The position numbers and the translations under genes were made by a program. From Chryseobacterium gleum (GTDB lineage: Bacteria; Bacteroidota; Bacteroidia; Flavobacteriales_D; Crocinitomicaceae), in contig CAMDFX010000004.1 of NCBI GenBank assembly GCA_945897805.1, positions 62,001-126,000 of the forward strand: a DNA stretch of 64,000 nucleotides. The letters are read 5' to 3'. Under the pieces are notes generated by a model. It ran no database searches. It saw only the letters and a list, made by a program, of their open reading frames with translations, and was not told where the DNA came from. This document shows positions 1-17,824 of the stretch, piece by piece. The first letter of the stretch is position 1; each line of letters opens with the position of its first letter.

Positions 1-563
1 TGATTTTTAGAGCTTTACTTTGTAAACACTTGGAAAAAGCCATTGATAACGGTAAAATAAAACTTCCCCAGGATGCAACTAGTTTTAAAGAGCTAAAAGA
101 TAAATGCTACAAAACAAATTGGGTAGTTTATGCTGAAAAGCCATTTTCATGTCCTGATAATTTGATTAATTATTTGGCAAATTATACGCATCGGGTAGCG
201 ATTGCAAATGAACGATTAATTCAACAAGATCAGAACAACGTTACTTTTTGCTACAAAGACTATAAAAATGCAGGTGTAAAACGCACGCTTACTATAGATA
301 AAATGGAGTTTATTCGACGTTTTTTACAACACGTTTTACCAAGTGGTTTTTGTAAAATCAGGTATTTTGGCTTTATGGCTATTTGTAACATTAAAACAAG
401 GTTAAACGAATGCTTTAAACTCATCAATAAGGTCTCATTTTTACCTAGTTTAGTTGGATTAAATGCTTTTGAAGTACTTGAAGTTTTAACTAAAAAAGAT
501 CCATTTTGTTGCCCAAAATGCAAAACAGGAAAACTGCTTCCTATATTAGCAAAACCAAGCTGA
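1..563 (+). CDS. IS91-family transposase, C-terminal part (5' cut by window)
   Basis: The reading frame is open to the window edge, so the real start lies outside; the TTG at position 30 is not a convincing start. The visible part has the features of an IS91-type (Y2 rolling-circle) transposase tail: YLANYTHRVAIAN, then EFIRRFLQHVLP followed by KIRYFGF, and a terminal CCPKC pair (near residues 160-164 counting from position 30). IS91-type elements move single strands and can mobilise neighbouring DNA. The catalytic tyrosines are not clearly visible in this fragment. It sits just upstream of the cassette array. Family assignment is good; whether the element is intact cannot be judged. Confidence 0.75.
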   Translation, partial: IFRALLCKHLEKAIDNGKIKLPQDATSFKELKDKCYKTNWVVYAEKPFSCPDNLINYLANYTHRVAIANERLIQQDQNNVTFCYKDYKNAGVKRTLTIDKMEFIRRFLQHVLPSGFCKIRYFGFMAICNIKTRLNECFKLINKVSFLPSLVGLNAFEVLEVLTKKDPFCCPKCKTGKLLPILAKPS

Positions 564-940: not shown

Positions 941-1975
941 ATGAAACCAATTATTCAGGAATTTTACAGCTCAGACAAATCTGTTGTTTCGACGCTCCGA
1001 ACTATAGTTCTATTCGGAAGAAATGTTTCAACATACAAATTTGCGTTAGCCTCAACATTACTTAATCTGAAGCCTAAAAACTTCATCTCCTACGAAGATT
1101 TGCGGGATGATTTCTTGAAATCATTATTGTCCCATTATCAAAAAAACCCACACCAATATCAAGCAGGTAAAAACAGTTTAACAAAGGCATTCGATCAATA
1201 TAAAATTGATAGCAATTGGAATGATTTATTAAAAACCGCTGAAAAGAATATTTACAATAATGTTTTTGATGCATTCCACAATGTTGGTGGTGGTGCTATT
1301 AAAAAAGAACACATTCTTTTTGAGCATTTACCAAATGAAAAAAAACTTGTTTTAACTGATAACATCAATGCCATACTAGAACAGCAGGATTTAATTGAAG
1401 AATTGAAGAATGAGAATGAAAGTCGTTGGAAAATTGTTGAGGAGGCATGGAAGAATAATTTATCTCCAAATTTCCTGGTCTATAATCAAGCAACGGCTGA
1501 ATTTGTCTCGGTGTCATCAACAGATCGAACTAACCTTCGGAGCGCCGTTTCAGTTCTTTTGCCATATCAGCATGGCTGTTGTTTCTATTGTAAAAAGAAA
1601 ATTAATTCTACTACAAATTCGGAAGATTCAGACTTTCCTGATGTCGATCACTTTATTGCACACTCGTATTTTAAACGACCAGATTTGAGTCATATAAATC
1701 CAGACGGTATTTGGAATCTTGTAATTGCTTGTAAAGAATTTAATCGAGGTTCAGGAGGTAAATTCGAGAGGCTCCCCGCTCTAAGCTATCAAAATGAAAT
1801 TGTTAATCGAAACGTTCTCTTTACTGAAGAACATCGTCATTCTCTGAAAAATTCAATACTGTTGAGTTTAAATGCCCAAAACCATATAGAAGTTCAAAGA
1901 AGAATGCTTTCTCTCTTTGATAAATTCAATATGATTGAAGGTTGGAAACCACTTCTAATTTATCACTATGAATAA
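941..1975 (+). CDS. HNH endonuclease-like protein
   Basis: 344 residues. The C-terminal half carries an HNH (beta-beta-alpha-metal) nuclease core: a C-x2-C zinc knuckle (CFYCKKK, about residues 214-220), the DVDHF segment with the catalytic histidine near 236, and WNLVIACKEFNRG with the N of HNH near 258. The N-terminal 200 residues are helical and unassigned. The stop overlaps the HIT gene by 8 nt, so the two are translationally coupled and probably act together. As first gene of a cassette array, a defensive or toxin role is plausible, but the substrate (DNA or RNA) is unknown. HNH fold confident; function inferred. Confidence 0.8.
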   Translation: MKPIIQEFYSSDKSVVSTLRTIVLFGRNVSTYKFALASTLLNLKPKNFISYEDLRDDFLKSLLSHYQKNPHQYQAGKNSLTKAFDQYKIDSNWNDLLKTAEKNIYNNVFDAFHNVGGGAIKKEHILFEHLPNEKKLVLTDNINAILEQQDLIEELKNENESRWKIVEEAWKNNLSPNFLVYNQATAEFVSVSSTDRTNLRSAVSVLLPYQHGCCFYCKKKINSTTNSEDSDFPDVDHFIAHSYFKRPDLSHINPDGIWNLVIACKEFNRGSGGKFERLPALSYQNEIVNRNVLFTEEHRHSLKNSILLSLNAQNHIEVQRRMLSLFDKFNMIEGWKPLLIYHYE

Positions 1976-2336
1976 TCCATTTATATCAATTCCTGAATCA
2001 AGAATATTATCTGAATCAGACGATTTTTTAATAATAAAAGATATATTCCCTGTATCCCCGGGTCACATGCTTATTATATCAAAGCGTAAGGCGTCTGACT
2101 TTTTCTCTCTAACTGATTCTGAAAGAAACCAGCTAAACAAAAGCATTTTAATTACAAAATCATTAATTGAATTGGAATATAAACCTAATGGATATAATAT
2201 TGGTATGAATTGTGGTGCGGCTGCCGGACAGACTGTATTTCATTTTCACTGTCATGTTATACCAAGGTACTTTGGGGATATGGAGAACCCAATGGGCGGG
2301 GTAAGACATTGTGTTGAAGGTAAAGGAAACTATTAA
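1968..2336 (+). CDS. HIT-family nucleotide hydrolase/transferase
   Basis: 122 residues, typical of a single HIT domain. The histidine triad HFHCHVIPRY lies at about residues 91-100, and the N-terminal half has the usual DIFPVSPGHMLIISK beta segment. HIT proteins hydrolyse or transfer nucleoside monophosphates (Ap4A, AMP-lysine, AMP-NH2 and similar). The start overlaps the HNH stop by 8 nt, which makes a stoichiometric two-gene unit. It might process a nucleotide signal or an adenylylated intermediate connected with the HNH protein; this is inference. The gene ends 7 nt before the attC-like site. Confidence 0.88.
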   Translation: MNNPFISIPESRILSESDDFLIIKDIFPVSPGHMLIISKRKASDFFSLTDSERNQLNKSILITKSLIELEYKPNGYNIGMNCGAAAGQTVFHFHCHVIPRYFGDMENPMGGVRHCVEGKGNY

Positions 2337-2343
2337 TAACAAA

Positions 2344-2401
2344 CCATAACAGCGTGTAAGCGCAACCCTACGGGTATACGCCTACTCGCAAAACGTTAGC
2401 C
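2344..2401 (+). other. attC-like recombination site 1
   Basis: A 58-bp imperfect inverted repeat. R''-like CCATAAC opens it and R' GTTAGCC (2395-2401) closes it; inside, GCGTGTAAGCG pairs imperfectly with CGCCTACTCGC around an ACCC-TAC-GGGT tip. The complement of CCATAAC is GTTATGG, exactly the start of this cassette at 925-931, as expected for an excisable cassette. The centre is strongly conserved with site 2. Confidence 0.6.
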
Positions 2402-2600
2402 CTTTTTTGAATTATCTTTATTTAACAATTTCCGCTAAGTTTTAGTTGGATTTTCTCTGGATGATTGAGATTTTCGCAAAATCAAAAGTTTTATTTCGTC
2501 CCTGCCGCGACGAGTTCTCGATGGTCGTGTTTTTTTTACCCATATTTCATCCCCAAAGGGATGGAACAGGTTTAGATTCTAAAAAAAATCCGTGCCATCC
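2395..2600 (+). repeat. cassette-front direct repeat, copy 1
   Basis: Begins at the R' core GTTAGCC and matches 4521-4730 closely over about 205 bp, including a conserved stretch reading CATCCCCAAAGGGATGG. A shorter third copy lies on the minus strand at 59970-60031. All three follow an attC-like core directly. Confidence 0.8.
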
Positions 2601-2876
2601 GTGGCAAAAAAAACCATGATTTCCGTGTCATCCGTGGCAAAAAAAATCCGTGATTTCCTTGCACTGCAAAGCAGACACGAAGTTAAATATAAGCACTGAA
2701 AGCATACAGCAAATGAAAAGTCGATTCGCCGATTTGTAAACTGAATAACCCAAAACACCAGTTTCGCCAAGCGATGCGACTTGGGTTGCACATGCGAAAT
2801 AAAAGTGCTATTTTTATCGTGTATAAATAAGTTAAGCATAATTATTAAAATCGTAAAATACTTAAAATAACGTAAA
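2601..2876. repeat. CCGTGG repeats and gene-free leader of the thioredoxin cassette
   Basis: Starts with degenerate copies of a unit resembling TCCGTGGCAAAAAAA with CCGTG(A/T) variants (from about 2585 to 2660). The rest is AT-rich leader with no convincing gene; open frames on the minus strand here are made of repeat sequence. Confidence 0.6.
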
Positions 2877-3683
2877 ATGACAAAGAAATTCTTCGTGACT
2901 ATGCTTGCAATAATAACGTTTATAAATATTGCAAACGCTCAAGTGAAAAATGAATTGAATGATTCATTAGCAGTAAAACATGAAATATTTAATAGTTTAA
3001 AAAAGGCAGAACCAGGCGATATTGATTCTGGTACGCCGATGATGTTAGATCCTTCAACTACTCCAATGTATTATGAGAATTTTGTATTGATTAAAGAAGG
3101 TGAATTTATGAAAATAATGATGTCGGGGGATTATATACCAGAGCCTTATATTGACAGTAAAAAAGTAGTAAAAGCTTTCGTGTTACGAAAAGCAACAGAG
3201 CTTGAGAAGGAGCAAATGAAGCAAATGCAAGGTAATATGCAAAATCCTGGACAAAATAACAATGAATTAATAGGGAAAGAGGCATTCCCATTTTCAGTGA
3301 CAGATATTTCTGGTAATAATTATTCGCTTGAAAAGTTAAAAGGAAAAATAATTGTTCTTAATTTTTGGTTCGTTGAATGCAAACCTTGCGTAATGGAAAT
3401 ACCAGACCTTAATGACTTAGTTGAAAAATATAAAGGAAAGGAAGTTGTTTTTCTTGGTTTTGCCACTAATGACAAATCGAAAATTGAGCGTTTTTTAAAA
3501 ACAAGAACCTATAAATACAAAATAATTGCAGACGGTAATGAGGTAGCAGGACTATATAAAGTAAATTCTTATCCAACCCATCTAATAATAGATACTAATT
3601 CAATAATCTCATACTATATTACGGGTTTAGGACCGACTACTATAGTTGACTTAGATAGGACAATTGAATCACTATTAAAATAA
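2877..3683 (+). CDS. TlpA/ResA-like exported thioredoxin-fold protein
   Basis: 268 residues. An N-terminal hydrophobic signal (about residues 1-21, ending IANA-Q) exports it. Residues 20-135 form an unassigned region rich in charged residues with a QMKQMQGNMQN stretch; residues about 140-268 are a redoxin/thioredoxin domain with a C-x2-C active site (ECKPCVME, near 168-171) and the cis-proline segment NSYPTHLI. Proteins of this kind reduce or exchange disulfides in the periplasm. As the only gene between two attC-like sites it appears to be a cassette cargo gene with an unusually long, repeat-bearing leader. Fold confident, substrate unknown. Confidence 0.85.
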   Translation: MTKKFFVTMLAIITFINIANAQVKNELNDSLAVKHEIFNSLKKAEPGDIDSGTPMMLDPSTTPMYYENFVLIKEGEFMKIMMSGDYIPEPYIDSKKVVKAFVLRKATELEKEQMKQMQGNMQNPGQNNNELIGKEAFPFSVTDISGNNYSLEKLKGKIIVLNFWFVECKPCVMEIPDLNDLVEKYKGKEVVFLGFATNDKSKIERFLKTRTYKYKIIADGNEVAGLYKVNSYPTHLIIDTNSIISYYITGLGPTTIVDLDRTIESLLK

Positions 3684-3687
3684 CTAT

Positions 3688-3746
3688 GCCAAACAGCGCA
3701 CAAGCTCAATCCTAAAAGGGTATGCGCCTGTTCGAAATCGTTAAAT
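3688..3746 (+). other. attC-like recombination site 2
   Basis: 59 bp, beginning 4 nt after the thioredoxin stop. R''-like GCCAAAC (3688-3694), R' GTTAAAT (3740-3746). The internal sequence aligns with site 1 over nearly its whole length (CAGCG..AAGC.CAA.CCTA..GGGTAT.CGCC). R'' is only a partial complement of the cassette's own GTTAGCC start (5 of 7). Confidence 0.6.
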
Positions 3747-3757
3747 GCAATTAAAAT

Positions 3758-4501
3758 ATGACAAGAAAAGCTATAATGATCGGTTCACCGGGGCCAAAGA
3801 ACACGAAGCGGTATTTAAGGGGCGTAGACATAGATTTACATCACTTTGTAAGTTTTTTAAAATCACCTATTGGTGGTTCTTGGGAGGATAATGAAATAAC
3901 AGGACTGTTTAAATGTCCATCTGAAAATTTGATCGAATTATTCCAAAGTACATATACTGATTTCTTACTTGTATATTTTTCCGGCCATGGTAAACAAGAT
4001 TTAAAAGAAACGAATATTGCAATAAATGACTCCGAATCACTTTCTGTTTCTCAATTAGTTTCGATTATAAAAGCACCTAAAGCCCTAATAATTATTGATA
4101 CTTGCCGAAAATCCATAGTTGAAGAATACTCAAGTTTCTCAGGCCCTGAATATTTATGCTTTAAATCAACTTTAAATCAACCAAATTCTAGTGAAAAATA
4201 CAAGCAAATAGTTTCTGAAAGTACAGACGGTATTTCTATAGCGTATGCTTGCTCTGTTGGAGAAATAAGTAATGATACAGAATTAGGAGGCGACTATACT
4301 TATTCATTGCTAAAAACATCTTTGGAATGGTATGAGAACCAAAAGAACGAAAGCGTATTATCTATAAATGGTGCGAATGATTTAGCTCATCAGTATTTGA
4401 AATTCAAATCAAATTTTGATCAGAATCCACAAGTTGTAACGATAAATGATAATGAAGAAAACTTGAATTTCCCATTTGCAATAAAATTAAACAGCCTTTA
4501 A
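3758..4501 (+). CDS. caspase-like (C14) peptidase
   Basis: 247 residues. The catalytic histidine lies in YFSGHGKQD (near residue 76) and the cysteine in IIIDTCRKS (near 116), the HG / DxC dyad spacing of clan CD caspase and metacaspase p20 domains. It begins with an AIMIGSPGP beta-strand and has no signal peptide, so it is cytoplasmic. There is no second domain; bacterial caspase-like proteins in defence loci usually cleave a partner or a suicide substrate, but no partner gene is adjacent. As a single-gene cassette it may act on host proteins or with a protein encoded elsewhere. Family confident, role inferred. Confidence 0.82.
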   Translation: MTRKAIMIGSPGPKNTKRYLRGVDIDLHHFVSFLKSPIGGSWEDNEITGLFKCPSENLIELFQSTYTDFLLVYFSGHGKQDLKETNIAINDSESLSVSQLVSIIKAPKALIIIDTCRKSIVEEYSSFSGPEYLCFKSTLNQPNSSEKYKQIVSESTDGISIAYACSVGEISNDTELGGDYTYSLLKTSLEWYENQKNESVLSINGANDLAHQYLKFKSNFDQNPQVVTINDNEENLNFPFAIKLNSL

Positions 4502-4527
4502 AATAGCATACACGCAAAGCGTTAGCC
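4486..4527 (+). other. attC-like site 3, shortened
   Basis: Only 42 bp, overlapping the end of the caspase gene: AAACAGC (shared with sites 1 and 2) at the left and CGCAAAGCGTTAGCC at the right, nearly identical to the right end of site 1. The central hairpin is largely missing, so this site is probably decayed. Confidence 0.45.
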
Positions 4528-4730
4528 CTTTTTTGAATTACAGGCATTTAAAAATTTCCGCTAAGTTTTAGTTAGGTTTTCTCTGGATGATTGAGATTTC
4601 CGTAAAAGCAAAAGTTTTATTTCGTCCCTACCGCGACGAGTTCTCGATGGTGGTGTTTTTTTTTACCCACATTTCATCCCCAAAGGGATGGAGCAGGGTT
4701 GGATTCTAAAAAAAAAAATCCGTGCCTTCC
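4521..4730 (+). repeat. cassette-front direct repeat, copy 2
   Basis: Second copy of the segment at 2395-2600, starting at the same GTTAGCC core. No gene follows it for 600 bp, so this cassette is empty or has lost its gene. Confidence 0.8.
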
Positions 4731-4925
4731 CTGGAAAAAATCCGTGCCTTCCATGGAAAATAATCTGTGCCTTCTGTGTCATCCGTGGCAAAAAAAACCG
4801 TGATTTCCGTGCCTTCCATGGCAAAAATAAAACATGATTTCCGTGACATCTGTGACAAATAATCCTTGATTTCTGTGCCATCCGTAGCAAAATTAATCCG
4901 TGCCTTCCGTGTCATCCGTGGCAAA
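4717..4925. repeat. degenerate tandem CCGTGNCWTCCGTGG repeats
   Basis: About eight degenerate units mixing ATCCGTGCCTTCC, GTGTCATCCGTGGC and A-tracts. The same family occurs at 2585-2660 and around 12538-12672. Long minus-strand open frames here are repeat-derived and not called as genes. Confidence 0.75.
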
Positions 4926-4930
4926 AAAAC

Positions 4931-5140
4931 ACTTTACTTCAATCAACTTTTTCAATTCGTTTTTCAATTGACTTTTAACGCAAAAAAAAAGGCAAAATTT
5001 ACTTTGCCCTTCCTGATTTTTGAATTTGAATTTATATTTTGATAACTATAAATTCACAGCACAATATAATTCAGGCGGATTTCCTTTACATGAAATCGCA
5101 AAAGATTCAAATGCAGAAGATTTTTCCAATCATACTTTTT
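4931..5140. other. intergenic with hairpin and possible gene remnant
   Basis: Holds a hairpin GGCAAA-ATTTAC-TTTGCC (4991-5008) flanked by an A-run and a T-rich stretch, possibly a terminator working both ways. From about 5041 a plus-strand frame reads like protein (DNYKFTAQYNSGGFPLHEIA) without a start, and could be the end of a lost gene. Evidence for that remnant is weak. Confidence 0.35.
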
Positions 5141-5196
5141 TCAACTGTGATGATAAGGTTCTCCTCTCAAAATAGTCATTCCGCGATATAATTGCT
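5141..5196 (-). repeat. copy of the rlmH 3' end (possible att site, left)
   Basis: 56 bp matching 6948-7003 with four differences, starting exactly at the stop codon complement. Translated on the minus strand it still encodes an RlmH tail ending RGEPYHHS; three of the four differences are silent and the fourth turns RREP into RGEP. That pattern suggests derivation from a related functional rlmH rather than random decay. Confidence 0.8.
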
Positions 5197-5210
5197 AAGC
5201 CGAAACTTTA

Positions 5211-5336
5211 TTATAATGTGATTTTGATTGATTTTATCAGTTATTCAATTGTTGTTTAACTTAAAAATCATATTAAAATGTGATTTAGGATGATTATTGA
5301 ATATTAAATTATTATATTTGAATTAAAAATCACATT
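5211..5336 (+). promoter_or_regulatory. hipBST promoter and operator boxes
   Basis: Three 10-bp boxes of one motif: AATGTGATTT at 5215-5224 and 5277-5286, and its complement AAATCACATT at 5327-5336; a weaker AAATCATATT at 5265-5274 forms a palindrome with the second box. A TAnnTTTG element (TATATTTG, 5313-5320) places the transcript start on or beside the last box, which ends just before the start codon at 5340. This fits autorepression by the HTH protein encoded downstream. Confidence 0.6.
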
Positions 5337-5339
5337 ATA

Positions 5340-5546
5340 ATGTTAGTTAAGGCTTTTGGGGAAAGAATAAAAAACAGGCGAAAAGAGTTGGAAATAACGC
5401 AACCTCACTTGGCAGAATTGGCAAATGTGAGCACGAATACGTTGTATAAATTGGAAAGAGGGCAGGGAAATCCTTCATTAGATGTATTAGCTAAACTAGC
5501 TGAAGTTTTAGGGATGGAACTAACGCTTGGTGTTAAGAAACTTTGA
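5340..5546 (+). CDS. hipB: XRE-family HTH antitoxin, HipB-like
   Basis: 68 residues, almost entirely one Cro/C1-type HTH (ERIKNRRKELEITQPHLAELANVSTNTLYKLERGQGNPS). HipB proteins bind operators upstream of their own gene and, with the other components, repress the operon; matching palindromic boxes are present just upstream. The gene lies 4 nt before the small HipS-like gene, and all three open frames are consecutive with tiny gaps or overlaps. Unlike E. coli K-12 hipBA there is a separate small gene between regulator and kinase, as in HipBST systems. Confidence 0.85.
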   Translation: MLVKAFGERIKNRRKELEITQPHLAELANVSTNTLYKLERGQGNPSLDVLAKLAEVLGMELTLGVKKL

Positions 5547-5550
5547 TTGA

Positions 5551-5880
5551 ATGCGTGAATTGGAAGTATACAGAAATGGAATTTTAGCGGGAATCCTAAC
5601 TGAAGTTGTTGGTCAAAATTTTGTTTTCAGGTATGAGGATGAATATTTCAACGATGGAAGTAAACCTGGGATTAGTTTAACACTGCCTAAAACTCAAAAA
5701 GTGCACCGCAGCGAATTTTTGTTCCCGTTTTTTTTTAACATGTTGAGCGAAGGTGTAAATCGAAAATTGCAAAGTACGGTTTTGAGAATAGACGAAGAAG
5801 ACCATTTTGGTTTGCTTGCAGCAACAGCTCAATATGATACGATTGGAGCAGTAACCGTGAAACCAATTTTGGCAAGATGA
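5551..5880 (+). CDS. hipS: HipS-like (HipA N-terminal subdomain) protein
   Basis: 109 residues corresponding to the N-terminal subdomain 1 of HipA (LEVYRNGILAGIL; then SLTLPKTQ; then LFPFFFNMLSEG). In the tripartite HipBST system of enteropathogenic E. coli the equivalent small protein HipS, rather than HipB, neutralises the kinase. The stop overlaps the start of the kinase gene by 4 nt (ATGA), so synthesis is coupled. No frame damage is seen, so the split is natural and not a frameshift of hipA. Confidence 0.8.
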   Translation: MRELEVYRNGILAGILTEVVGQNFVFRYEDEYFNDGSKPGISLTLPKTQKVHRSEFLFPFFFNMLSEGVNRKLQSTVLRIDEEDHFGLLAATAQYDTIGAVTVKPILAR

Positions 5881-6884
5881 ACTTAGAGGATTTAAAATAT
5901 TGCCCAGGCACATTGACTGAGAATTTTTCAACGTATAATCCGAAGTGCTTGCGGAATATGTTTAGTGGCAAGAAAGTGAGTCATGTTTTACCTTATGAAT
6001 TGCCCCAACAAAGTGAAGAGGTTGCGGAACAATTCATGGAAAATCGCAAGCGCATTTCTATTTCAGGTGTGCAGGAAAAATTGAGCTTTTCAATCGAAAA
6101 AAACACCTTGCGGTTAACAAAATCCGGAGAACAAGGCGAATATATACTCAAGCCAATTCCAAGAGATTTAAAAAAGGTTGATCAAGTTCCTGCCAATGAA
6201 CATTTGACTATGCAAATTGCCAAACAAGTTTATGGTTTGAATACGGCCGAAAATGCTTTAATTTTTTTTAAAAATGGTTCAGCTGCATATATTACAAAGC
6301 GTTTTGATGTCAAAAAAAATGGAAGTAAATTGGGCATAGAAGATTTTGCTTCGCTTGCCGGAAAAACAAAAGACAATGCAGGTGCGAATTTCAAATATGC
6401 ATATAGTTATGAAGCGCTAGGATTGTTGATTCAAAAATTTGTCCCTGCGTGGCGCATTGAAATCGAAAAGTACTTTTCTTTGGTTGTCTTTAATTATCTT
6501 TTTTCGAACGGAGATGCCCATCTAAAAAACTTTTCTTTACTTGAGTCAGCAAGTGGTGATTATTTCTTAAGTCCGGCTTATGATCTTGTCAATACAAAGT
6601 TGCATGTCGACGATTCTGATTTTGCATTAGATGAAGGACTTTTTGCGGACGGTTTTAAAAGTGAATATTTTAAGCGCAGCGGTCATCCATCAAAAATCGA
6701 TTTTATAGAATTTGGAATTAGAATAGGCGTTGCACAAAGTAGGCTTGAGAAAATATTAAATCCGTTTTTAGAGAGACAACTTTTTGCAGAAACGTTAGTT
6801 AGTCGTTCTTTTTTAGCTGAAAGCAACAAAAGGGCCTACTTATTCATGTATCAAACTCAGAGAAATCATTTAATTGCCAAATAA
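5877..6884 (+). CDS. hipT: HipT/HipA-like serine/threonine kinase toxin
   Basis: 335 residues. The Gly-rich loop contains RISISGVQEKLSF with an S-I-S motif at residues 61-63, the autophosphorylated motif known from HipT kinases. The catalytic segment is NGDAHLKNFSL (about 211-221) and the metal-binding segment SPAYDLVN (about 231-238). Kinases of this family phosphorylate aminoacyl-tRNA synthetases (GltX for HipA, TrpS for E. coli HipT) and stop growth; the target here is unknown. It lacks subdomain 1, which is supplied by the upstream small gene. The gene ends 63 bp from rlmH, which converges on it. Confidence 0.87.
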   Translation: MNLEDLKYCPGTLTENFSTYNPKCLRNMFSGKKVSHVLPYELPQQSEEVAEQFMENRKRISISGVQEKLSFSIEKNTLRLTKSGEQGEYILKPIPRDLKKVDQVPANEHLTMQIAKQVYGLNTAENALIFFKNGSAAYITKRFDVKKNGSKLGIEDFASLAGKTKDNAGANFKYAYSYEALGLLIQKFVPAWRIEIEKYFSLVVFNYLFSNGDAHLKNFSLLESASGDYFLSPAYDLVNTKLHVDDSDFALDEGLFADGFKSEYFKRSGHPSKIDFIEFGIRIGVAQSRLEKILNPFLERQLFAETLVSRSFLAESNKRAYLFMYQTQRNHLIAK

Positions 6885-6947
6885 AATTGAAACCAAAAGG
6901 TTGTTCTAAGTATTAAAGTAAACTTCTAATTTTCAAAAGTTTTCACT

Positions 6948-7003
6948 TCAACTATGATGATAAGGTTCTCTTCTCAAAATAGTCATGCCGCGATACAATT
7001 GCT
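6948..7003 (-). repeat. rlmH 3' end repeat (possible att site, right)
   Basis: The last 56 bp of the intact rlmH gene, repeated at 5141-5196 in the same orientation. The interval between the copies (1.75 kb) contains only the hipBST-like operon and its control region. Confidence 0.8.
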
Positions 7004-7421
7004 CAAATAAAATCATGCGCACCATTTGATGGGAAAATGTCAATTCTGAAAGCGATATTTTTCCAGTTGCCGCTTGGTAAACATCCTCGGAAAAACCATA
7101 CGGGCCACCAATTACTAGCGTCAGCGCATGTCCACCTTGATTGAATCTTTGCTGCAAAAAGTCGGCAAATTTCTCCGAAGTAAACGTTTTCCCGTGTTCG
7201 TCCAATAAATACAGTTGTTCGCCGCTGTTCACCTTCGAAAGAATTAAATCGCCTTCCTGTTTTTTAATTTGATCTACAGTCAAACTTTTCGCATTCTTCA
7301 AGTCAGCAATTTCAATTCGTTCAACTGCAACATAATGTTTCAATCGATTCAAATAAGTCAATTCTCCTTCCTCCAGGAATCCCTTCCCCGTTTTACCAAT
7401 ACAAATGACTTTGATTTTCAT
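6948..7421 (-). CDS. rlmH: 23S rRNA (pseudouridine1915-N3)-methyltransferase
   Basis: 157 residues, full length for the SPOUT-class RlmH. It shows the SAM-binding knot: LVIGGPYGF, then LSLSELTFSHQMVRMILFEQLYRG, with the characteristic C-terminal tail EPYHHS. The enzyme methylates the modified base at position 1915 in helix 69 of 23S rRNA, using SAM. The gene stands alone, convergent with the HipT-like gene. The orthologue in Staphylococcus (orfX) is the insertion target of SCC elements, relevant because its 3' end is duplicated here. Confidence 0.97.
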   Translation of the reverse strand: MKIKVICIGKTGKGFLEEGELTYLNRLKHYVAVERIEIADLKNAKSLTVDQIKKQEGDLILSKVNSGEQLYLLDEHGKTFTSEKFADFLQQRFNQGGHALTLVIGGPYGFSEDVYQAATGKISLSELTFSHQMVRMILFEQLYRGMTILRREPYHHS

Positions 7422-7515
7422 GCCTACAATTGAGACTACAAGATTACATTATTTTTTCAAATTTACGATTAGTGTTAAAAGTTAAATTAATACCACGTTT
7501 TAGTTTTCACTCGAT

Positions 7516-7571
7516 CACACTGAGCTTGTCGAAGCACACTCTTCACACTGAGCTTGTCGAAGTGCACTCTT
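7516..7571. repeat. two tandem 28-bp repeats with CTGAGCTTGTCGAAG core
   Basis: Copies 7516-7543 and 7544-7571 differ at two positions. The core ACTGAGCTTGTCGAAG is a widespread dispersed intergenic repeat in many bacterial genomes. It lies between rlmH and gldF, outside the predicted promoter. Confidence 0.8.
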
Positions 7572-7630
7572 CACTCCCCCCAAAAAAAAGTTCCAAACAA
7601 TAGACCCTTGATACAATTCAAAAGATAGTG

Positions 7631-7661
7631 TTGAATAATTGCAACATTAATCCTATTTTTG
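7631..7661 (+). promoter_or_regulatory. gldF promoter
   Basis: TTG at 7631-7633, a 20-nt spacer and TATTTTTG at 7654-7661, matching the Bacteroidota -33/-7 consensus. The predicted transcript starts about 15 nt before the gldF start codon. Confidence 0.6.
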
Positions 7662-7681
7662 GGCGTTATTTAAAATTTTAG

Positions 7682-8413
7682 ATGAAAGCTTTATATTTTA
7701 AAGAAATTCGGAGTTTCCTGAGTTCAATCATTGGATACATTTTTATTTTGATTTTCTTGATTACCTCAGGATTATTTCATTGGATTATATCCTACAATAC
7801 CAATTTGTTAGAAGGTTCAGAATCTGATTTGATTCCATTTTTTAATTTGTCCCCACTGATTTTTTTAATCCTCATTCCTGCCATTACGATGCGCTCAATC
7901 GCTGAGGAAAGAAGAACAGGAACCATCGAATTATTGTTCACCAGACCAATTTCTGATCTGCAAATCTTGCTTGCAAAATATTTTGCGGGAGTAACTTTGG
8001 TAGTCATTACTTTGATTCCAACGTTGATTTTTTACGTTTCTATGCATTATTTAGGAAATCCAGTGGGCATTATCGATGATGGTGCCACTTTCACTTCCTA
8101 TATTGGATTGATTCTTTTGGGTTCAACTTTCGTTGCCATTGGAATATTCGCATCTTCAATCACTTCGAGCCAAATTGTTGCCTTTATTTTAGCGATGTTT
8201 TTGTGCTGGATTTTTTATGATGGTCTAACTTTACTTGGTTCATTCAGTTTGATGGGAAGTTTTGACTCAATTATCAAATATTGCGGAATCAGCTTTCACT
8301 ATGATTCTATCAAACGCGGTGTAATTGACACAAGCGATGTCATTTACTTTTTGGGAGTAATTACTATTTTCATGGCTTCAGCGCTTACAGTTATTAAATC
8401 ATTAAAGAAATAA
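7682..8413 (+). CDS. gldF: gliding-motility ABC transporter permease GldF
   Basis: 243 residues with six hydrophobic segments, an ABC-2 type permease (segments near 10-30, 55-75, 100-125, 140-165, 170-190 and 220-240). The conserved cytoplasmic element RSIAEERRTGTIELLFTRPIS follows the second segment. GldF works with GldA (ATPase) and GldG; in Flavobacterium johnsoniae all three are needed for gliding. gldA is not adjacent here. It is followed 4 nt later by gldG. Whether this strain glides cannot be told from this pair alone. Confidence 0.92.
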   Translation: MKALYFKEIRSFLSSIIGYIFILIFLITSGLFHWIISYNTNLLEGSESDLIPFFNLSPLIFLILIPAITMRSIAEERRTGTIELLFTRPISDLQILLAKYFAGVTLVVITLIPTLIFYVSMHYLGNPVGIIDDGATFTSYIGLILLGSTFVAIGIFASSITSSQIVAFILAMFLCWIFYDGLTLLGSFSLMGSFDSIIKYCGISFHYDSIKRGVIDTSDVIYFLGVITIFMASALTVIKSLKK

Positions 8414-8417
8414 GGAA

Positions 8418-10208
8418 ATGGAAAAAAAGAAACTTTTCAAAGGAGTTTACAATTGGACATTTTTAATGATTCTAATTGCTTCAGTCGTATTGTTAAATAT
8501 TATTGGTTCTTACATTTATGCACGATTTGATGTCACTGAAGATAAAAGATATTCCTTGTCAGACGGTACGATTGAATATTTGTCAAACACCAAAAATTTT
8601 GCAGATAGGGTTTCAATCAAAATCTATTTGTCAGGAAATCTTCCTGCTGAGGTGCAACGTTTCAAAAATGCAATCGAAGATAAACTGAAAGAATTCAAAG
8701 AATACGCTGGTTCAAGAATTGAATACACTTTCGTTGATCCTTTGGCTGGTTCAGAAGAAGACAGATTGTATATGCAAGAAACCATCTACAACAAAGGAAA
8801 AGGGATTGTTCCAATGGGTTTGATGTACATGAAAGATGGTACACAAAATCAATTATTGCTTTGGCCCGGTGCTGAAATCGATTATGGCGGAAGTACGGTC
8901 AATCACATCCAATTTTTGCCGGGTACACCGCAAGGAAAATTTTATACTTTGAACGAATCTTTCGACGATCAAATTCAAAATTCCATCAACAATTTGGAGT
9001 ACATGATTATTAGCGGAATTCGTCGCGCAACACAATCTGACAAGCCAAGAATCGCATTTTTGCAAGGTCATGGCGAGTTAACATTGGCGCAAACACTTCG
9101 CGCAAGAACATTGATTTCGCCATATTACACAGTGGAAGATATTACTTTGAATGATTCAGTTGAGGCGTTGAATGGGGTGAGAGGTTTGGTGATTGCTAGA
9201 CCACGTGCGGCTTTTTCTGAAAAAGACAAATACATCATCGATCAATTTGTGATGAACGGCGGAAGATTGATGTGTTTTGTTGATAAATTAGCATTCGAAG
9301 AAGATACCATTTTAAGAACCGGCGTGGCGCATACCACCAGAACAAATATTGATTTAGACAAAATGTTGTATGATTACGGAATAAAAGTAAACGACAATTA
9401 TGTGTTTGATGTGCGTTGCGCCCCAAAAGCAATTCCCTCTTCAGAACAAGGCTTTATTCCCTGGTTTTTCTTCATTCGTGCGACGCAAACAAAGCATCCG
9501 ATTGCCAGAAACATTGATCCAGTTTTGTTGAAATATGCTTCTGAAATTCAGTTTGTTGGAAATAGTACCAATGTAGCTTCTCCGATTTTGACTTCTTCAA
9601 CCAATTCTTCCATGACTGGTTTGGCTCCGATGATCAGTTTATCAATTCCAGCAAGTTATGGTAAAAACCCAATGTTGGCACCAGATCCTGAGGATGAAAA
9701 CAACAAACTTTGCTTGGCTGGATTAGTTGAAGGAAAATTCACTTCGCACTACAAAAATAGAATTGTTGAATCGTATGCAAAAAACAAATTGTCTAAATAC
9801 AAAGAATCTAGCGTTGCAGAAGGAAAAGTTTTAGTGGTCGGAAATGGTTCTTTCCTTCAAAATAGGTATGACTCTGTTCCTGATAAATTGTCTGGAAAAT
9901 ACAATTATATTCCGAACGCCTTCAACGAATTGAAATTTGATGAAACCGTTGCGCAAATGCAAGGTGTGCCGCCATTGATATATGGAAATCAAGAGTTCTT
10001 TCAAAACATGGTTGATTACATGATGGGCGATAATTCAGTGTTAGACTTGAGAAGTAAACAAATTGACATTCATGCGATTGATAAAGAGAAAGTGCAAGTT
10101 GACGCTGGTTTTTATAAGTTCATCAATATGCTTTTGCCCAGTGGAATCATTCTGATTTTTGCCGCATTGATGCTTTATTTGCGTAAAAGAAAATACACGA
10201 GAAATTAA
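8418..10208 (+). CDS. gldG: gliding-motility ABC transporter auxiliary protein GldG
   Basis: 596 residues: an N-terminal membrane anchor (about 14-36), a long extracytoplasmic region with the ABC-transporter auxiliary (IftA/GIFT-like) domain starting RFDVTEDKRYSLSDGT and including RIAFLQGHGEL, and a C-terminal anchor (about 572-590) followed by RKRKYTRN. It is the usual partner of GldF. The next gene starts 44 nt downstream, so the pair likely extends as an operon towards the DUF4340-like gene. No disruption seen. Confidence 0.93.
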   Translation: MEKKKLFKGVYNWTFLMILIASVVLLNIIGSYIYARFDVTEDKRYSLSDGTIEYLSNTKNFADRVSIKIYLSGNLPAEVQRFKNAIEDKLKEFKEYAGSRIEYTFVDPLAGSEEDRLYMQETIYNKGKGIVPMGLMYMKDGTQNQLLLWPGAEIDYGGSTVNHIQFLPGTPQGKFYTLNESFDDQIQNSINNLEYMIISGIRRATQSDKPRIAFLQGHGELTLAQTLRARTLISPYYTVEDITLNDSVEALNGVRGLVIARPRAAFSEKDKYIIDQFVMNGGRLMCFVDKLAFEEDTILRTGVAHTTRTNIDLDKMLYDYGIKVNDNYVFDVRCAPKAIPSSEQGFIPWFFFIRATQTKHPIARNIDPVLLKYASEIQFVGNSTNVASPILTSSTNSSMTGLAPMISLSIPASYGKNPMLAPDPEDENNKLCLAGLVEGKFTSHYKNRIVESYAKNKLSKYKESSVAEGKVLVVGNGSFLQNRYDSVPDKLSGKYNYIPNAFNELKFDETVAQMQGVPPLIYGNQEFFQNMVDYMMGDNSVLDLRSKQIDIHAIDKEKVQVDAGFYKFINMLLPSGIILIFAALMLYLRKRKYTRN

Positions 10209-10252: not shown

Positions 10253-11323
10253 ATGAAAAAAAATATAGTTCTAATTGTTGCCATCGCTGTACTGGGTTTC
10301 TTGGCTTTTTTAGCTACCAATTTGGTTAGAAATAGCGGTAAATCTGATACAGAATTGCTTGAGTTTTCAGTTGAAGATACAACGAGTATTGATAAAATTA
10401 TTTTGACGGATGCGTACAACAATAAATTTGAGTTGAAACGCGCCGCGGGTGGAGAATGGACAGATGCAAAAGGAGATTGTATTATTCAACAGCCGGTTTA
10501 CATGATGTTAGAGACATTCAGAAACATTGAATTCAAAGGTTATGTTCCCGAGCAAGCGCGCAAAAATATCACCAACAGAATGTCTGCAAGCAATATCAAA
10601 GTGGAAATTTTTCAGCAGGGCGAATGGTCCAAAACGTGGTACATCGGATTTTCAACGCAGGATCATTATGGAACCTACATGTTGTTGGAAACGCCAGACG
10701 AAAAAAGTGATTTGCCAGTAATCATGAAAGTGAAAGGCTTGAATGGAATAATCGAACCGAGATTTTTTGCAGATCCAAGGCGCTGGAAATGCACTAATAT
10801 TTTCTCGCTTGAAAGAGATGAAATCGCCAAAGTGGATGTAAAATTCAACGATGTTCCTAATAGAAGTTTTTCTGTGGAAAAAAATGGCAATCAATTTACA
10901 GTGAAACATGTGGGGAAAATCATTCCGAATATCGATACAAACATGGCGGTTCGCTACTTGAACAATTACAGAAAAATCCATTTTGAATTGGTAAATTATG
11001 AATTTGGACCAAAACAAATCGACAGTTTGAAAAAATCCGTTCCTTTTTGCGAACTATCTGTAAAAGAAGTGAATGGAAATTTAAATAAATTAAAAATGTA
11101 CCGAATGAAAGGTACGGGCGTAAAAGAAGTAAATGATTTTGGGGATTCAACCACTGCTGATGTCAATCGATTTTGGTGTATTTTACCTTCTGGAGATTTA
11201 GTAAAATGTCAGTATTTTGTGTTCTCACCATTGATGATGGGCCATATTTATTTTGGTCAAGCGCCTAAAAATGTTGGAAATAATGAAAAGCTTTTAAAGA
11301 AAAAATCTGCCAACAAAAACTAA
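10253..11323 (+). CDS. membrane-anchored DUF4340-like protein
   Basis: 356 residues with one N-terminal membrane anchor (about 4-24) and a beta-rich extracytoplasmic domain that begins with the pattern FSVEDTTSIDKIILTD...FELKR, as in DUF4340 proteins. Such proteins are often encoded beside ABC_transp_aux (GldG-type) genes and are presumed accessory subunits of that exporter. It follows gldG and precedes dnaN. The function is not established; the family call is moderate. Confidence 0.65.
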   Translation: MKKNIVLIVAIAVLGFLAFLATNLVRNSGKSDTELLEFSVEDTTSIDKIILTDAYNNKFELKRAAGGEWTDAKGDCIIQQPVYMMLETFRNIEFKGYVPEQARKNITNRMSASNIKVEIFQQGEWSKTWYIGFSTQDHYGTYMLLETPDEKSDLPVIMKVKGLNGIIEPRFFADPRRWKCTNIFSLERDEIAKVDVKFNDVPNRSFSVEKNGNQFTVKHVGKIIPNIDTNMAVRYLNNYRKIHFELVNYEFGPKQIDSLKKSVPFCELSVKEVNGNLNKLKMYRMKGTGVKEVNDFGDSTTADVNRFWCILPSGDLVKCQYFVFSPLMMGHIYFGQAPKNVGNNEKLLKKKSANKN

Positions 11324-11328
11324 AAATG

Positions 11329-11336
11329 TATATTTG
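11329..11336 (+). promoter_or_regulatory. dnaN promoter -7 element
   Basis: TATATTTG, matching TAnnTTTG, 20 nt before the dnaN start codon. No clear -33 element. Confidence 0.45.
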
Positions 11337-11356
11337 TTATCAAAAGAATAAATAAG

Positions 11357-12475
11357 ATGAATTTTATCGTTTCGAGTACCACGTTATTGAGACACCTTCA
11401 AAGTATCAGTGGCGTACTTAGCACTAGCAATACATTGCCAATATTGGATAATTTCCTTTTTGATATCGTTGAAGGTGAATTAACTATTTCTGCTTCAGAT
11501 TTAGAGACAACTATGCGCACAAAATTGGACGTTGAAGCCAATGAATCAGGTAAAATTGCCATTCCTGCTAAAATTTTATTGGATATTTTAAAAAATCTTC
11601 CGGAGCAGCCATGTACTTTTTTGATCGATTTTCCGAAATTTGGGATAGAGATTTCATACGACAATGGCAAGTCAAAAATGGTTGGATTCAATGGGGATGA
11701 TTTTCCAAAAGCTCCTATGATTGAAAATAGCGACAAAATTCTTGTTTCTGGTGATATCATTTCAAAAGCAATTAGTAAAACATTGTTTGCAACTGGGAAC
11801 GACGATTTACGTCCTGTTATGAGTGGCGTTTTTTGCCAGTTTTCGTCAGCAGAGATTATTTTTGTTGCTACAGATGCACATAAATTAGTAAGATACAAAA
11901 GAACTGATTCGCAAGCTACAGGAAGTTCATCTTTCATTTTGCCAAAGAAGCCTTTAAATATGTTGAAATCCAACTTGAGAGGTGACGAGGAAGTATTGAT
12001 TGAATATTCCGATTCAAGTGCGATTTTTACGTTCAATGATTTGGTTTTATCTTGTCGCTTGATTGATGGAAAATACCCAAATTATGAAGCCGTAATTCCA
12101 AAAGAAAATCCAAATGTTTTGACAGTCGATAGATTGCAATTCTTGGGCTCTATCAAACGAGTTTCGATTTTCTCAAACAAAACTACGCACCAAATAAAGC
12201 TTAAAATTGCCGGTTCTGAATTGTCACTTTCTGCCGAAGATTTAGATTTCAGTAACGAAGCCAACGAGCGTTTGACTTGTTCTTACGATGGTGTGGACAT
12301 GGAAATTGGTTTCAACTCAAGATTCTTGATGGAAATGTTGAGCAACATCGACACACCTGAAATCAAAATTCAAATGAGCGAACCAAGCCGCGCGGGATTA
12401 TTAGTTCCTGCAACTTCAGACAATGAACATGAAGATATTCTAATGTTGGTGATGCCAGTAATGTTGAACAGATAA
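11357..12475 (+). CDS. dnaN: DNA polymerase III sliding clamp (beta subunit)
   Basis: 372 residues, full length, three clamp domains. It begins MNFIVSSTTLL, carries the standard GKIAIPAKILLDILKNLP segment of domain 1 and ends with the conserved MPVMLNR motif that contributes to the partner-binding pocket. It encircles DNA as a dimer and tethers polymerase III and repair factors. A promoter element and a strong terminator frame it as a single transcript. Its position after the gld genes is a known flavobacterial arrangement. Confidence 0.97.
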   Translation: MNFIVSSTTLLRHLQSISGVLSTSNTLPILDNFLFDIVEGELTISASDLETTMRTKLDVEANESGKIAIPAKILLDILKNLPEQPCTFLIDFPKFGIEISYDNGKSKMVGFNGDDFPKAPMIENSDKILVSGDIISKAISKTLFATGNDDLRPVMSGVFCQFSSAEIIFVATDAHKLVRYKRTDSQATGSSSFILPKKPLNMLKSNLRGDEEVLIEYSDSSAIFTFNDLVLSCRLIDGKYPNYEAVIPKENPNVLTVDRLQFLGSIKRVSIFSNKTTHQIKLKIAGSELSLSAEDLDFSNEANERLTCSYDGVDMEIGFNSRFLMEMLSNIDTPEIKIQMSEPSRAGLLVPATSDNEHEDILMLVMPVMLNR

Positions 12476-12498
12476 TTCTCAAAAAAAATATATTTTGA

Positions 12499-12529
12499 AA
12501 GCCATCGATTAGATTCGGTGGCTTTTTTT
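12499..12529 (+). terminator. rho-independent terminator of dnaN
   Basis: Stem GCCATCG / CGGTGGC (one G-U pair) with an 8-nt loop followed by seven T. Confidence 0.85.
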
Positions 12530-12889
12530 GTGGTTTTTTTGCCACGGATTTCACATATTTCACGGAAAAAGTGGGGTTAAAAAATGATTGGATTATTTTT
12601 GAAGATAATTCTTGACATAAAATTTCGTAAACTTTATTTTCTCTCAAAAAAAATCCCTGCATCCGTGGCCAAAAACTCATTTAGTCTTAAAATCTAAAAA
12701 AATGACCCGCTTCGCTAAAAGATTTTAAGATATTAGGAGTCGCCGCCGCGCAACTGTAGGACTAGATTTTTGCTAATGCTTTAAAATTGTGAGTTGAATG
12801 CCAAAATTCAAGCGAATCAGAAAGTCTTAACATCTTAAAATCCTAGCATCTTAATATCTTAACACCCTAAAATGTCTAATGAAAATAAG
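12530..12889. other. repeat-rich intergenic region before mutS2
   Basis: No gene. It holds inverted CCGTGG-type repeats (TTGCCACGGAT near 12539 and ATCCGTGGCCAAAAA near 12660), related to those at 2.6 and 4.8 kb, and a run of degenerate ATCTTAA units at about 12826-12866. Confidence 0.7.
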
Positions 12890-12897
12890 TATTTTTG
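12890..12897 (+). promoter_or_regulatory. mutS2 promoter -7 element deciding the start
   Basis: TATTTTTG fits TAnnTTTG. The ATG at 12902 lies only 4 nt downstream, so transcription would begin at or next to that ATG; the ATG at 12872 would not be in the transcript. This implies a leaderless or nearly leaderless mRNA. Confidence 0.5.
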
Positions 12898-12901
12898 CAC
12901 C

Positions 12902-15028: not shown

Positions 15029-15090
15029 AAAGTTAATTACAAACGGATTAAACTTTAAATTCGTTACTTGATAACTCAAAATATAGAACT

Positions 15091-16641
15091 ATGAAAAAAA
15101 TATTACTCTTAACAATTGTTGTTTCATTGACGATGAATTCATGGTCTCAAGATTCACTTTACAACAAAGTTTTATATCAACCGAACATCGATTTTGAAGC
15201 AAATTCAGTTTTGGCAACCAATGACGGTGGATTATTGCTAGCAGGTTTTTCTGGTTTTGATTCAGGATTTATATGTAAAGTAGATTCTTTAGGCGATTAT
15301 GTTTGGAACGAATTTTTAAGTTTTCAAAGTCCACTTTCAAATGAAATAACTTTCAACCAATTGATCGAAACCAGCGACAATGCGTATGTTGCAGTAGGAA
15401 AAGCAATCAATAATGACAATTTGCAATACGAAGGGTATGTATTGAAATTAAACAATTTAGGTGATACGCTTTGGTCGAAATCGCTGGCAATTGCCAACAA
15501 TTCAAATTATGAAATAAGTGCAGTCACAGAAACTAACGATGGTGGATATGCCGTGGCTGGAAATATCAATTATGGAGAAAGTGTTTTTGTTGCCAAATTA
15601 ACTGCAAATGGAAATTTAGATTGGACACACACTTTAGATGTTGCGGGTGATTCTGCGGTTTATGTCAACGCAATTAAATCTACTGTAACAAATGGAATTT
15701 ATGTTTCAGGCTATAACGACAGTACAACCGCCATTAAATTTGGGACTTTGCATCATTTCACAGATGCTGGAGATTATGAATGGACAAAAAAATATGCGGA
15801 TGTAAAAACGTATGGTTTAGAAATGACCAATCAAGGAGTTGCTATGTTGACACTCGATTTAAATAATTATTCATTTGCTTTAATAAAAGCTAATTTCAGC
15901 GGAGAAAATGCAAACGAAACAATTTTCTTTGGCCAAGATTGTCAATTTCCTGAAAAAATGAAATTTGAGATGCAATCTGACAGTTCATTTATTTTCATGA
16001 ATCCCAATGATTTTGATTCTAGGATTTTTAAGGCAAATAAAGAATTAAACGCAACTGTGGCTTACAAAAGACCCTTTATGAAAGGTTTTGCCATTGTTGA
16101 AACTAAAAACAAAAACGTTTTTACTGTTGGAAACGGACCTATTTATGGTATTAAAGTTTGTCTTCAAAAGCATGTTGGGATTATTAAACTGGACCAAAAC
16201 TTTCAAAATCTCAATGCTTTGTGTTTAAATGAAGATAACGCTGCTACAGTAGTTACAAATACAATAGTTGCAAATGATAAATTGTTTGCTTCATCAACAG
16301 GTTTAACTACTTTTTCAAATCCTGCGACAATTTCAACGCAAGTTTTGGCTTCAGAAATTACTTGCGTGAGTTTCTTTGGAAGTATTGACGAACAATCCTT
16401 GGCTGAATTGATCAAGATTTATCCAAATGTTTCAACAGGAATTTTCCATATCGAGCAAGCTGAAATGAATGACATTGAAGTGAGTGTTTTTGATGCTTTG
16501 GGACAAAAAGTTCACCAACAAGAATTTAAGGACTACACCACGGACATCGATTTATCTAATCAACAAGCAGGCATTTATTTTTATCAGATGAAAGATGCGA
16601 GAAATAGAACGGCTTCAGGTAAATTGATTTTGATGAATTAA
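15091..16641 (+). CDS. secreted protein with T9SS type A sorting domain
   Basis: 516 residues. A signal peptide (about 1-19, ending SWS-Q), repeated beta-propeller-like blades with ATNDGGLLLAGFS, ETNDGGYAVAGN and similar elements (residues 40-330), and a C-terminal sorting domain of about 75 residues (IYPNVSTGIFHIE...ALGQKV...LSNQQAGIYFYQM). The tail directs export across the outer membrane by the type IX system and surface attachment. The recurrent NDGG..VAG units suggest a delta-60/propeller repeat protein. Substrate or adhesion role unknown. Single gene between mutS2 and an insertion element. Confidence 0.88.
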   Translation: MKKILLLTIVVSLTMNSWSQDSLYNKVLYQPNIDFEANSVLATNDGGLLLAGFSGFDSGFICKVDSLGDYVWNEFLSFQSPLSNEITFNQLIETSDNAYVAVGKAINNDNLQYEGYVLKLNNLGDTLWSKSLAIANNSNYEISAVTETNDGGYAVAGNINYGESVFVAKLTANGNLDWTHTLDVAGDSAVYVNAIKSTVTNGIYVSGYNDSTTAIKFGTLHHFTDAGDYEWTKKYADVKTYGLEMTNQGVAMLTLDLNNYSFALIKANFSGENANETIFFGQDCQFPEKMKFEMQSDSSFIFMNPNDFDSRIFKANKELNATVAYKRPFMKGFAIVETKNKNVFTVGNGPIYGIKVCLQKHVGIIKLDQNFQNLNALCLNEDNAATVVTNTIVANDKLFASSTGLTTFSNPATISTQVLASEITCVSFFGSIDEQSLAELIKIYPNVSTGIFHIEQAEMNDIEVSVFDALGQKVHQQEFKDYTTDIDLSNQQAGIYFYQMKDARNRTASGKLILMN

Positions 16642-16725
16642 ATTCAGGAATAAAAAAGACATAAAAAAAGGGTTAATGGACAAAAAGTAGGCTGAAAGCT
16701 CTGGAAAGCGTTATGTTTAGTAGCT

Positions 16726-17655: not shown

Positions 17656-17669
17656 GAATTCGAAAATAA

Positions 17670-17696
17670 TAATGGGAAGACTAAATCTTCCCATTA
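17670..17696 (+). terminator. transposase terminator hairpin
   Basis: Perfect 11-bp stem TAATGGGAAGA / TCTTCCCATTA with loop CTAAA, 14 nt after the transposase stop, inside the element. Confidence 0.7.
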
Positions 17697-17824
17697 CTCA
17701 TTATTTTGTCATTCATCAAAGCATCCCTGGCGAGTTGCTCTCCAGCAGAGCTCGATTCCGTTTAACTTTGATAATTCAAAAATAAAGAAGTGAGATATTG
17801 CTTCAACAAAATATCAAAAATAAA

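Follow-up and report, generated by a model that had tools for sequence, protein, structure and literature searches.

How did a toxin–antitoxin operon come to lie between two copies of the 3′ end of rlmH? The question is raised by a 64,000-nucleotide stretch of the genome assembled as Chryseobacterium gleum (GCA_945897805.1, Crocinitomicaceae), a freshwater bacterium whose 3.19 Mb genome is in 25 contigs. The stretch, here called the window, is positions 62,001 to 126,000 of contig CAMDFX010000004.1 (C4:62001–126000). A reading of its sequence alone had described the operon, hipBST, as bounded by duplicated rlmH ends and had proposed an element that targets rlmH like a staphylococcal cassette chromosome (SCC). 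We find that the hipBST gain and the second rlmH tail are both real and that recombination most likely left them as a scar, of a kind already known.

The intact rlmH gene (6948–7421, minus strand) is an open reading frame (ORF) for a 157-residue protein ending in RREPYHHS. It scores 212.6 bits against NCBIfam NF000990 (cutoff 207) and matches Pfam PF02590, and its closest relatives among the records are Flavobacteriia and Crocinitomicaceae metagenome-assembled genomes. Repeat searches and ungapped comparison identified a 57-bp direct repeat consisting of the last 56 bases of rlmH and one base beyond. The proximal copy (6947–7003, minus strand) is the functional gene end, and the distal copy (5140–5196, minus strand), found by repeat and genome searches, is a stand-alone 3′ end that reads RGEPYHHS-stop. 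The copies have the same orientation and a spacing of 1807 bases, and 53 of 57 positions are identical (93%). At lags of at least 60 within 3001–9000, these 53 matches were the best of any ungapped 57-base comparison; the runner-up, 44 matches at lags 66 and 133, is in a short-period repeat tract. The four differences are TTG/TTA, GGC/GGA, AGA/GGA, and CAT/CAC. Three are silent and one exchanges R and G; the functional end is QLYRGMTILRREPYHHS-stop and the distal copy is QLYRGMTILRGEPYHHS-stop. A genome search with the distal copy as query returned the two tails at E 5.8e-36 and 3.3e-18 and a next best match at 0.22, and the whole genome contains no further significant copy. The recurrence that had been noticed earlier, with its orientation, its four differences, and its RGEPYHHS ending, is therefore confirmed by repeat and ungapped searches. 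Its sizes needed correction in part. The repeat measures 57 bp, not 56 bp, and the 1.75 kb is the distance between the copies, whose starts are 1.81 kb apart.

The cargo between the tails is an ordinary HipBST system. The segment (5197–6946, plus strand), delimited by ORFs and repeats, carries the operon and its promoter region. The first gene, hipB (5340–5546, plus strand), encodes a 68-residue helix-turn-helix protein (PF01381, E 6.6e-14; TIGR03070, E 2.7e-16, under the cutoff). The second, hipS (5551–5880, plus strand), encodes a 109-residue antitoxin-like protein corresponding to the HipA N-terminal subdomain (PF13657, Couple_hipA; TIGR03071, 90.1 bits, above the cutoff). The third, hipT (5877–6884, plus strand), overlaps hipS by 4 bases and encodes a predicted 335-residue kinase toxin of the HipA family (PF07804, HipA_C) that matches HipT(Lp) 8ezr at E 2.1e-30. 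Against NCBIfam, RlmH and HipS scored above their cutoffs and HipB below, and no HipT model was matched. The operon is convergent with rlmH. Its three genes are the only ones between the tails, and no recombinase is among the ORFs or Pfam matches of the segment, both in agreement with the sequence-only reading. The order hipB–hipS–hipT, a HipS that is the HipA N-terminal subdomain, and a HipT that is a HipA_C kinase without that subdomain define HipBST membership, and all three are present. HipT also keeps the SIS serines beside the Gly-rich loop and the kinase motifs NGDAHLKN and SPAYDLVN. Gene order, split HipA, and SIS beside the Gly-rich loop are likewise described for the operons of E. 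coli O127 and Legionella pneumophila (PMC8262856, PMC10627512), whereas the HipT here is only a distant relative of the solved HipTs (best phmmer E 1.3e-30). In the E. coli system, HipB represses the operon, HipS neutralizes HipT, and free HipT phosphorylates TrpS (PMC8262856, PMC10627512). By analogy, the three proteins here would act as repressor, neutralizer, and kinase on TrpS.

The promoter region (5206–5348, plus strand) contains three similar near-palindromic sites (about 5208–5226, 5265–5286, and 5327–5348) detected as direct and inverted repeats. The sites are ATCACATTATAATGTGAT-like and are possible HipB operators; inspection by eye shows similar ATCACA/TATAATGTG-type sites ahead of other hipB genes. 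Only about 10 bp separate the first site from the distal tail, and there is thus little between the tails besides hipBST and its control region. At E ≤1e-40, HipT relatives were found in 19 of the 299 genomes searched in the order, its own included, the best being 81% identical. There were none at this threshold in G001 and G003, two of the four congeners (G001–G004) used for comparison. Neither rlmH nor the rlmH tail pattern is present at 12 hipBST loci of other genomes, which argues that the rlmH tail is not part of the hipBST module. Eleven of these loci have no direct repeat longer than 16 bp within about 1.5 kb of hipBST, and at the remaining one, L235, there is a 99-bp repeat that bears no relation to rlmH. 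Searches with HipT gave one weak match in phages and 635 plasmid records, every one below 60% identity.

Comparison with the congeners shows that hipBST was gained at this place and is foreign to the site. In G001 and G004, a single RGEPYHHS rlmH tail is followed by a short-chain dehydrogenase/reductase (SDR) gene and a cupin gene, and hipBST is absent from the rlmH flanks of both (for G004, the 4.7 kb downstream that were covered). In G002, genes related to this SDR and cupin pair lie about 2.3 kb behind rlmH. A search of the 36 kb surrounding the window's locus (L047, L048) found neither. None of 40 rlmH flanks from relatives contained hipBST; they extend from 61 bp to 15.7 kb downstream and cover at least 4 kb in 33 cases. 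The absence of the SDR and cupin genes together with the presence of hipBST and a second tail indicates a replacement rather than a clean insertion. An empty site with one tail and no hipBST had been anticipated in related strains. G001 and G004 do have a single tail and no hipBST, but their far flank differs in carrying the SDR and cupin genes.

Beyond the distal tail, where these congener genes are missing, a stretch of about 160 bp (4976–5139) extends to intergenic repeats. Its single match is weak (73% identity across 78 bases, E 0.002) and is located beyond the cupin gene of G002. Rfam gave no match on 4400–7600. A 45-residue reading at 5038–5172 was considered as a gene remnant, and its best foreign match in 199 genomes had E 0.013. 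The next neighbor, a caspase-like gene with its flank (3691–4755; caspase domain PF00656), is common with G001, where it is 95% identical and also lies behind rlmH. An ABC-F-type gene marks the end of the region in both genomes. The caspase-like stretch and the ABC-F-type gene held in common with G001 indicate that both sides of the change belong together.

Is the operon the cargo of a cassette that integrates at rlmH? The 57-bp copies would then be attL and attR, and a recombinase that acted in trans or was later lost would have inserted hipBST. Names for such recombinase-less cassettes are pseudo-SCC and cis-mobilizable element. Enterococcus cassette chromosomes (ECC) are located at the rlmH 3′ region and have attL/attR repeats of about 50 bp (PMC6222049), which makes the anatomy here suggestive on its own: the site is the rlmH 3′ end, direct repeats flank the segment, one of them is the whole end of rlmH, and their length is near that of the ECC att. 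In other respects the locus is unlike SCC and ECC. A ccr serine recombinase was not recognized in the segment, where only hipB, hipS, and hipT were. The SCC att core TATCATAA quoted in that source (PMC6222049) is absent, and both tails read TATCATCA. A clean insertion would leave beyond the distal tail the flank found at the congeners' single-tail site, with its SDR and cupin genes, and the flank here is a different one. Two resolvase-family matches occur in the genome, both outside the locus: a small one elsewhere on C4 and a 553-residue large serine recombinase on another contig, C8. The latter could be counted in favor of a cassette, but it sits at the 3′ end of a different gene, not of rlmH. 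It is encoded at 9071–10732 of L250, and its 3′ end overlaps that of its neighbor, a glmS-like gene; no tRNA was found there.

Related genomes were also surveyed for recombinases adjoining rlmH, as the sequence-only reading had advised. The survey covered 119 rlmH loci and 1.12 Mb of DNA downstream of them; 40 loci are from the genome set and 79 from named records, and some represent one genome more than once. A tblastn search with nine recombinases of this genome returned one intact tyrosine recombinase, 3.8 kb downstream in L164, and a 46-residue remnant in G001; the search is limited to recombinases resembling the nine queries, and unlike ones would be missed. Recurrence of the double tail was assessed with a degenerate pattern of the RlmH end (EPYHHx-stop), which matches just 238 genomes in a set of 399 from the order and 65 in a set of 395 from the phylum, both sets including the present one. 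Two tail matches occurred in five genomes of the order set and three of the phylum set, and they were close and in the same orientation only in this genome. The other candidates were rejected: the tails are on different contigs in G120, G260, G202, and G280 of the order and in G701 of the phylum, and in G531 they share a contig but are 396 kb apart on opposite strands. The last 24 bases of rlmH, allowing at least 19 matches, recur downstream once in the 119 loci and 0 times in a reversed control. That single locus, L179 of Gillisia limnaea DSM 15749 (10474–15098), was rejected as a second case since it has the whole of rlmH and its neighbors twice between N runs, a probable scaffolding artifact. 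No other cargo was seen at the rlmH site in the 40 flanks, the 119 loci, or the 399 and 395 genomes. The degenerate pattern had 0 matches in viral contigs, and in one search of the available literature no paper combined Bacteroidetes, rlmH, and genomic island.

The Gillisia artifact and the 25 contigs of the present assembly raise the idea that two rlmH loci were joined in a chimera. The longest identical run between the tails is 16 bases, which is short for the usual assembly word. In addition, rlmH and the caspase-like stretch are near each other in G001 as well, and there is no N run in 4001–8500. A chimera is very improbable.

Copied gene ends are not peculiar to rlmH. We scanned for near copies of gene ends within 12 kb and outside ORFs, using an ungapped scan and BLAST. 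The ungapped scan of 836 kb of this genome (669 ORFs) gave three copied tails, those of accC, a GNAT acetyltransferase gene, and rlmH, and 0 copied heads; 2.19 Mb of other loci (1892 ORFs) gave four tails and one head. The BLAST scan was limited to copies outside ORFs of at least 40 bp and at least 80% identity in the same orientation. Genes with more than four non-self matches were dropped, L179 was excluded, and some of the other loci are the same genome twice. In 1.19 Mb of this genome (944 ORFs), BLAST found three heads and three tails that reach the stop, belonging to accC, a 419-residue gene on C2, and rlmH. Two more tails end short of the stop, that of the acetyltransferase gene (by 13 nt) and that of a C2 paralog matching the same remnant as the 419-residue gene. 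One of the heads is clear (C2:65039, AAA/DUF4143), and two are near paralogs, as is the C2 tail. The other loci (2.17 Mb, 1869 ORFs) gave three tails, from an asparagine synthase gene in L139, an SDR gene in L140, and an ATPase gene in L178, and one head (L235, a local repeat). A 46-bp tail at 87% identity in L193 from the ungapped scan did not reappear with BLAST and is not counted. A bias toward tails over heads is not established.

The individual cases differ in what they enclose. The last 86 bases of accC (biotin carboxylase; C1:192557–194358, L263) and at least 15 beyond are copied 303 bp downstream in diverged form with one inserted base, about 200 bp between gene and copied tail are gene-free, and accC of G001–G004 has no end copy within 1.5 kb. 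About 120 3′ bases of the GNAT acetyltransferase gene (C1:538645–541251, L296) are copied 2155 bp downstream, beyond a convergent 546-residue ORF with MORN repeats. The uncharacterized 419-residue gene, which has no Pfam match, and its 3′ end copy bracket one convergent Bro-N gene (C2:80491–82998, L311), with paralogs nearby. This geometry is the same as that of rlmH and hipBST. The Bro-N gene has relatives in G004 (97%) and G001 (87%), and so its gain may be older. In L139, from Fluviicola sp. isolate NORP3 (14735–17718), an acyltransferase gene is located between the asparagine synthase gene and an identical 39-bp end copy, and each tail extends over the start of the gene that follows. The interval from gene to copied tail contains a 348-residue ORF in L140 and three ORFs in L178. 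These similar copies at unrelated genes join the wrong far flank, the absent TATCATAA core, the lack of recurrence, and the scarcity of recombinases in leaving the proposed SCC-type element unsupported. A dedicated rlmH target for this element is not supported, and a cassette inserted by a trans-acting or lost recombinase is quite unlikely.

If the second tail is not an attachment site, did it arise inside this genome or arrive with the operon? A dead duplicate would be expected to change mostly at non-silent positions. The divergence is instead mostly silent: 3 of 4 differences at rlmH, 4 of 5 at accC, and 3 of 4 at the acetyltransferase gene, pooled 10 of 13 against 21% expected if unconstrained (P 2.5e-5). 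Polarized by the four congeners, TTA, GGA, and probably CAC belong to the distal copy and are all silent, and the change from G to R belongs to the functional copy. The two tails are closely related, both having ACT where G001, G002, and G004 have ACC and G003 has ACG. A duplication within the genome would account for this kinship and would require no foreign rlmH allele. The rlmH tail and hipBST would have been tandemly duplicated after hipBST arrived, and the second hipBST would have been deleted, leaving its tail to decay. Gene-end copies of varied divergence do exist in this genome, and a deletion would also suit the missing SDR and cupin genes. Decay does not readily give three silent changes out of the three best polarized to the distal copy, however; the chance is 0.006 to 0.019 if unconstrained, with CAT/CAC ambiguous because G002 has CAC. 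In addition, the bases after the two tails have only TGAA in common. An intragenomic origin is judged unlikely, and quite possibly the tails represent alleles from two lineages. The foreign rlmH tail proposed earlier is plausible to that extent, with 3 of 4 differences silent at rlmH and 10 of 13 in the pool, but neither tail can be assigned to a donor.

Import by recombination is the explanation that we favor, as somewhat the likelier course of events. According to this model, hipBST was carried on DNA of a close relative that would have had the operon behind its own rlmH. The incoming rlmH 3′ end with hipBST would recombine by homology with the resident rlmH, and the non-homologous other end would be joined illegitimately at a point 57 bp short of where an rlmH 3′ end stops. 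Two routes could form the joint: trimming and re-circularization of the fragment followed by a single crossover, and homology-facilitated illegitimate recombination (HFIR). In the product, intact rlmH would be followed by hipBST and this by a remnant rlmH tail from the other allele, and the SDR and cupin genes would have been lost in the same event or later. rlmH would be a homology anchor and not a specific target, no dedicated recombinase would be needed, and the change would have survived because rlmH stayed whole. The donor arrangement, the joint, its route, and the relative timing of gain and loss are our inferences. The locus has the marks of such a scar, namely an anchor gene that is intact, a partial repeat of its end on the far side of the cargo, and no recombinase. 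The fit is partial and comprises the intact anchor, the 57-bp tail repeat, a homology-free junction at 5196/5197, and the loss of neighbors.

Laboratory precedents support the model. In the lacZ experiments reported for E. coli, 56 of 60 Lac− clones obtained with lacZ-end DNA had a partial end duplication, which measured 109–950 bp in the 14 sequenced (PMC3240628). Trimming, re-circularization, and a single crossover were the explanation given there, and the intact anchor of the Lac+ class was the outcome of a single crossover with an untrimmed circle (PMC3240628). As in the E. coli lacZ, S. pneumoniae, A. baylyi, and P. stutzeri cases treated in that article (PMC3240628), foreign DNA here lies at an anchor gene, part of whose end is repeated, and there is no recombinase. 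The present case is unlike them in being a natural scar only, of 57 bp; the laboratory clones were Lac−, and true HFIR is described there as generally giving deletions. Insertion in HFIR is typically coupled with deletion in the same account (PMC3240628), and here the hipBST gain accompanies the absence of the SDR and cupin genes. A natural parallel is found in the type VI secretion system (T6SS) effector–immunity arrays of V. cholerae, in which old 3′ ends are shifted downstream and for which the authors propose an HFIR-like route (PMC5361080). There, as here, new cargo stands at an anchored gene and the old 3′ end is pushed downstream; the effector gene itself is displaced in the arrays, whereas RlmH is altered by at most one residue. 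HFIR has also been proposed to explain variable genome segments in E. coli (PMC2884548).

Several observations weigh against import by recombination. The donor order rlmH–hipBST was seen in none of the 40 relatives' rlmH flanks or the 12 hipBST loci, which are a sample only. A single crossover alone does not explain the missing SDR and cupin genes. The repeat of 57 bp is shorter than the 109–950 bp duplications, and rlmH is intact whereas lacZ was inactive in the 56 clones; the intact case corresponds to the ordinary single crossover of that article. The functional copy is itself constrained, so a fair null is about half silent, against which 10 of 13 is marginal (P about 0.05 by our arithmetic). 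The 419-residue gene on C2 (6 of 12 silent) and L178 (5 of 13) have no clear excess of silent differences, and the coding tails of L139 are identical. L140, with 3 of 5 silent, is less clear, and all seven cases together give 24 of 43. Finally, neither tail stands out as the native one: the proximal copy differs from G001 and G004 at 3 sites and the distal copy at 5, and the corresponding numbers against G002 are 8 and 7.

With these data an inviting example of SCC-like elements beyond the Firmicutes loses weight, and the general lesson is that a repeated gene end around cargo does not prove a site-specific recombinase. We raise only tentatively the broader idea that Flavobacteriales commonly add single genes and small toxin–antitoxin or defense-like modules harmlessly beside core genes without a recombinase, and that diverged duplicates of gene ends mark this route; on present evidence it is doubtful. 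If it held, each end copy could be read as a scar, and the two alleles and the anchor of the transfer behind it could be inferred genome-wide. If the scars were as frequent as sampled (three stop-reaching tails and one just short per 1.19 Mb), they would be a simple readout of module entry, including that of small modules like HipBST in genomes showing no mobile element.

The surrounding region has further features. The window's 941–4501 is a variable stretch with a weakly PtuB-like protein and HIT-domain, thioredoxin-like, and caspase-like proteins, and is possibly defense-related. At the ABC-F end of the variable region, an IS91-like transposase (Y2_Tnp and a zinc-binding domain) adjoins a tyrosine integrase (window 1–563 and C4:60.5–62.6 kb). 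This integrase was considered as the agent and rejected; it is about 5 kb from the distal tail, beside the ABC-F-type gene, and has its own IS91-like transposase. An intergenic repeat of about 118 and 59 bases occurs at 2420–2588 and 4546–4715, with 93% identity between the copies, adjoining 33-base repeats of the CCGTG type. Similar copies of this intergenic repeat are present behind rlmH in G001 and G004.

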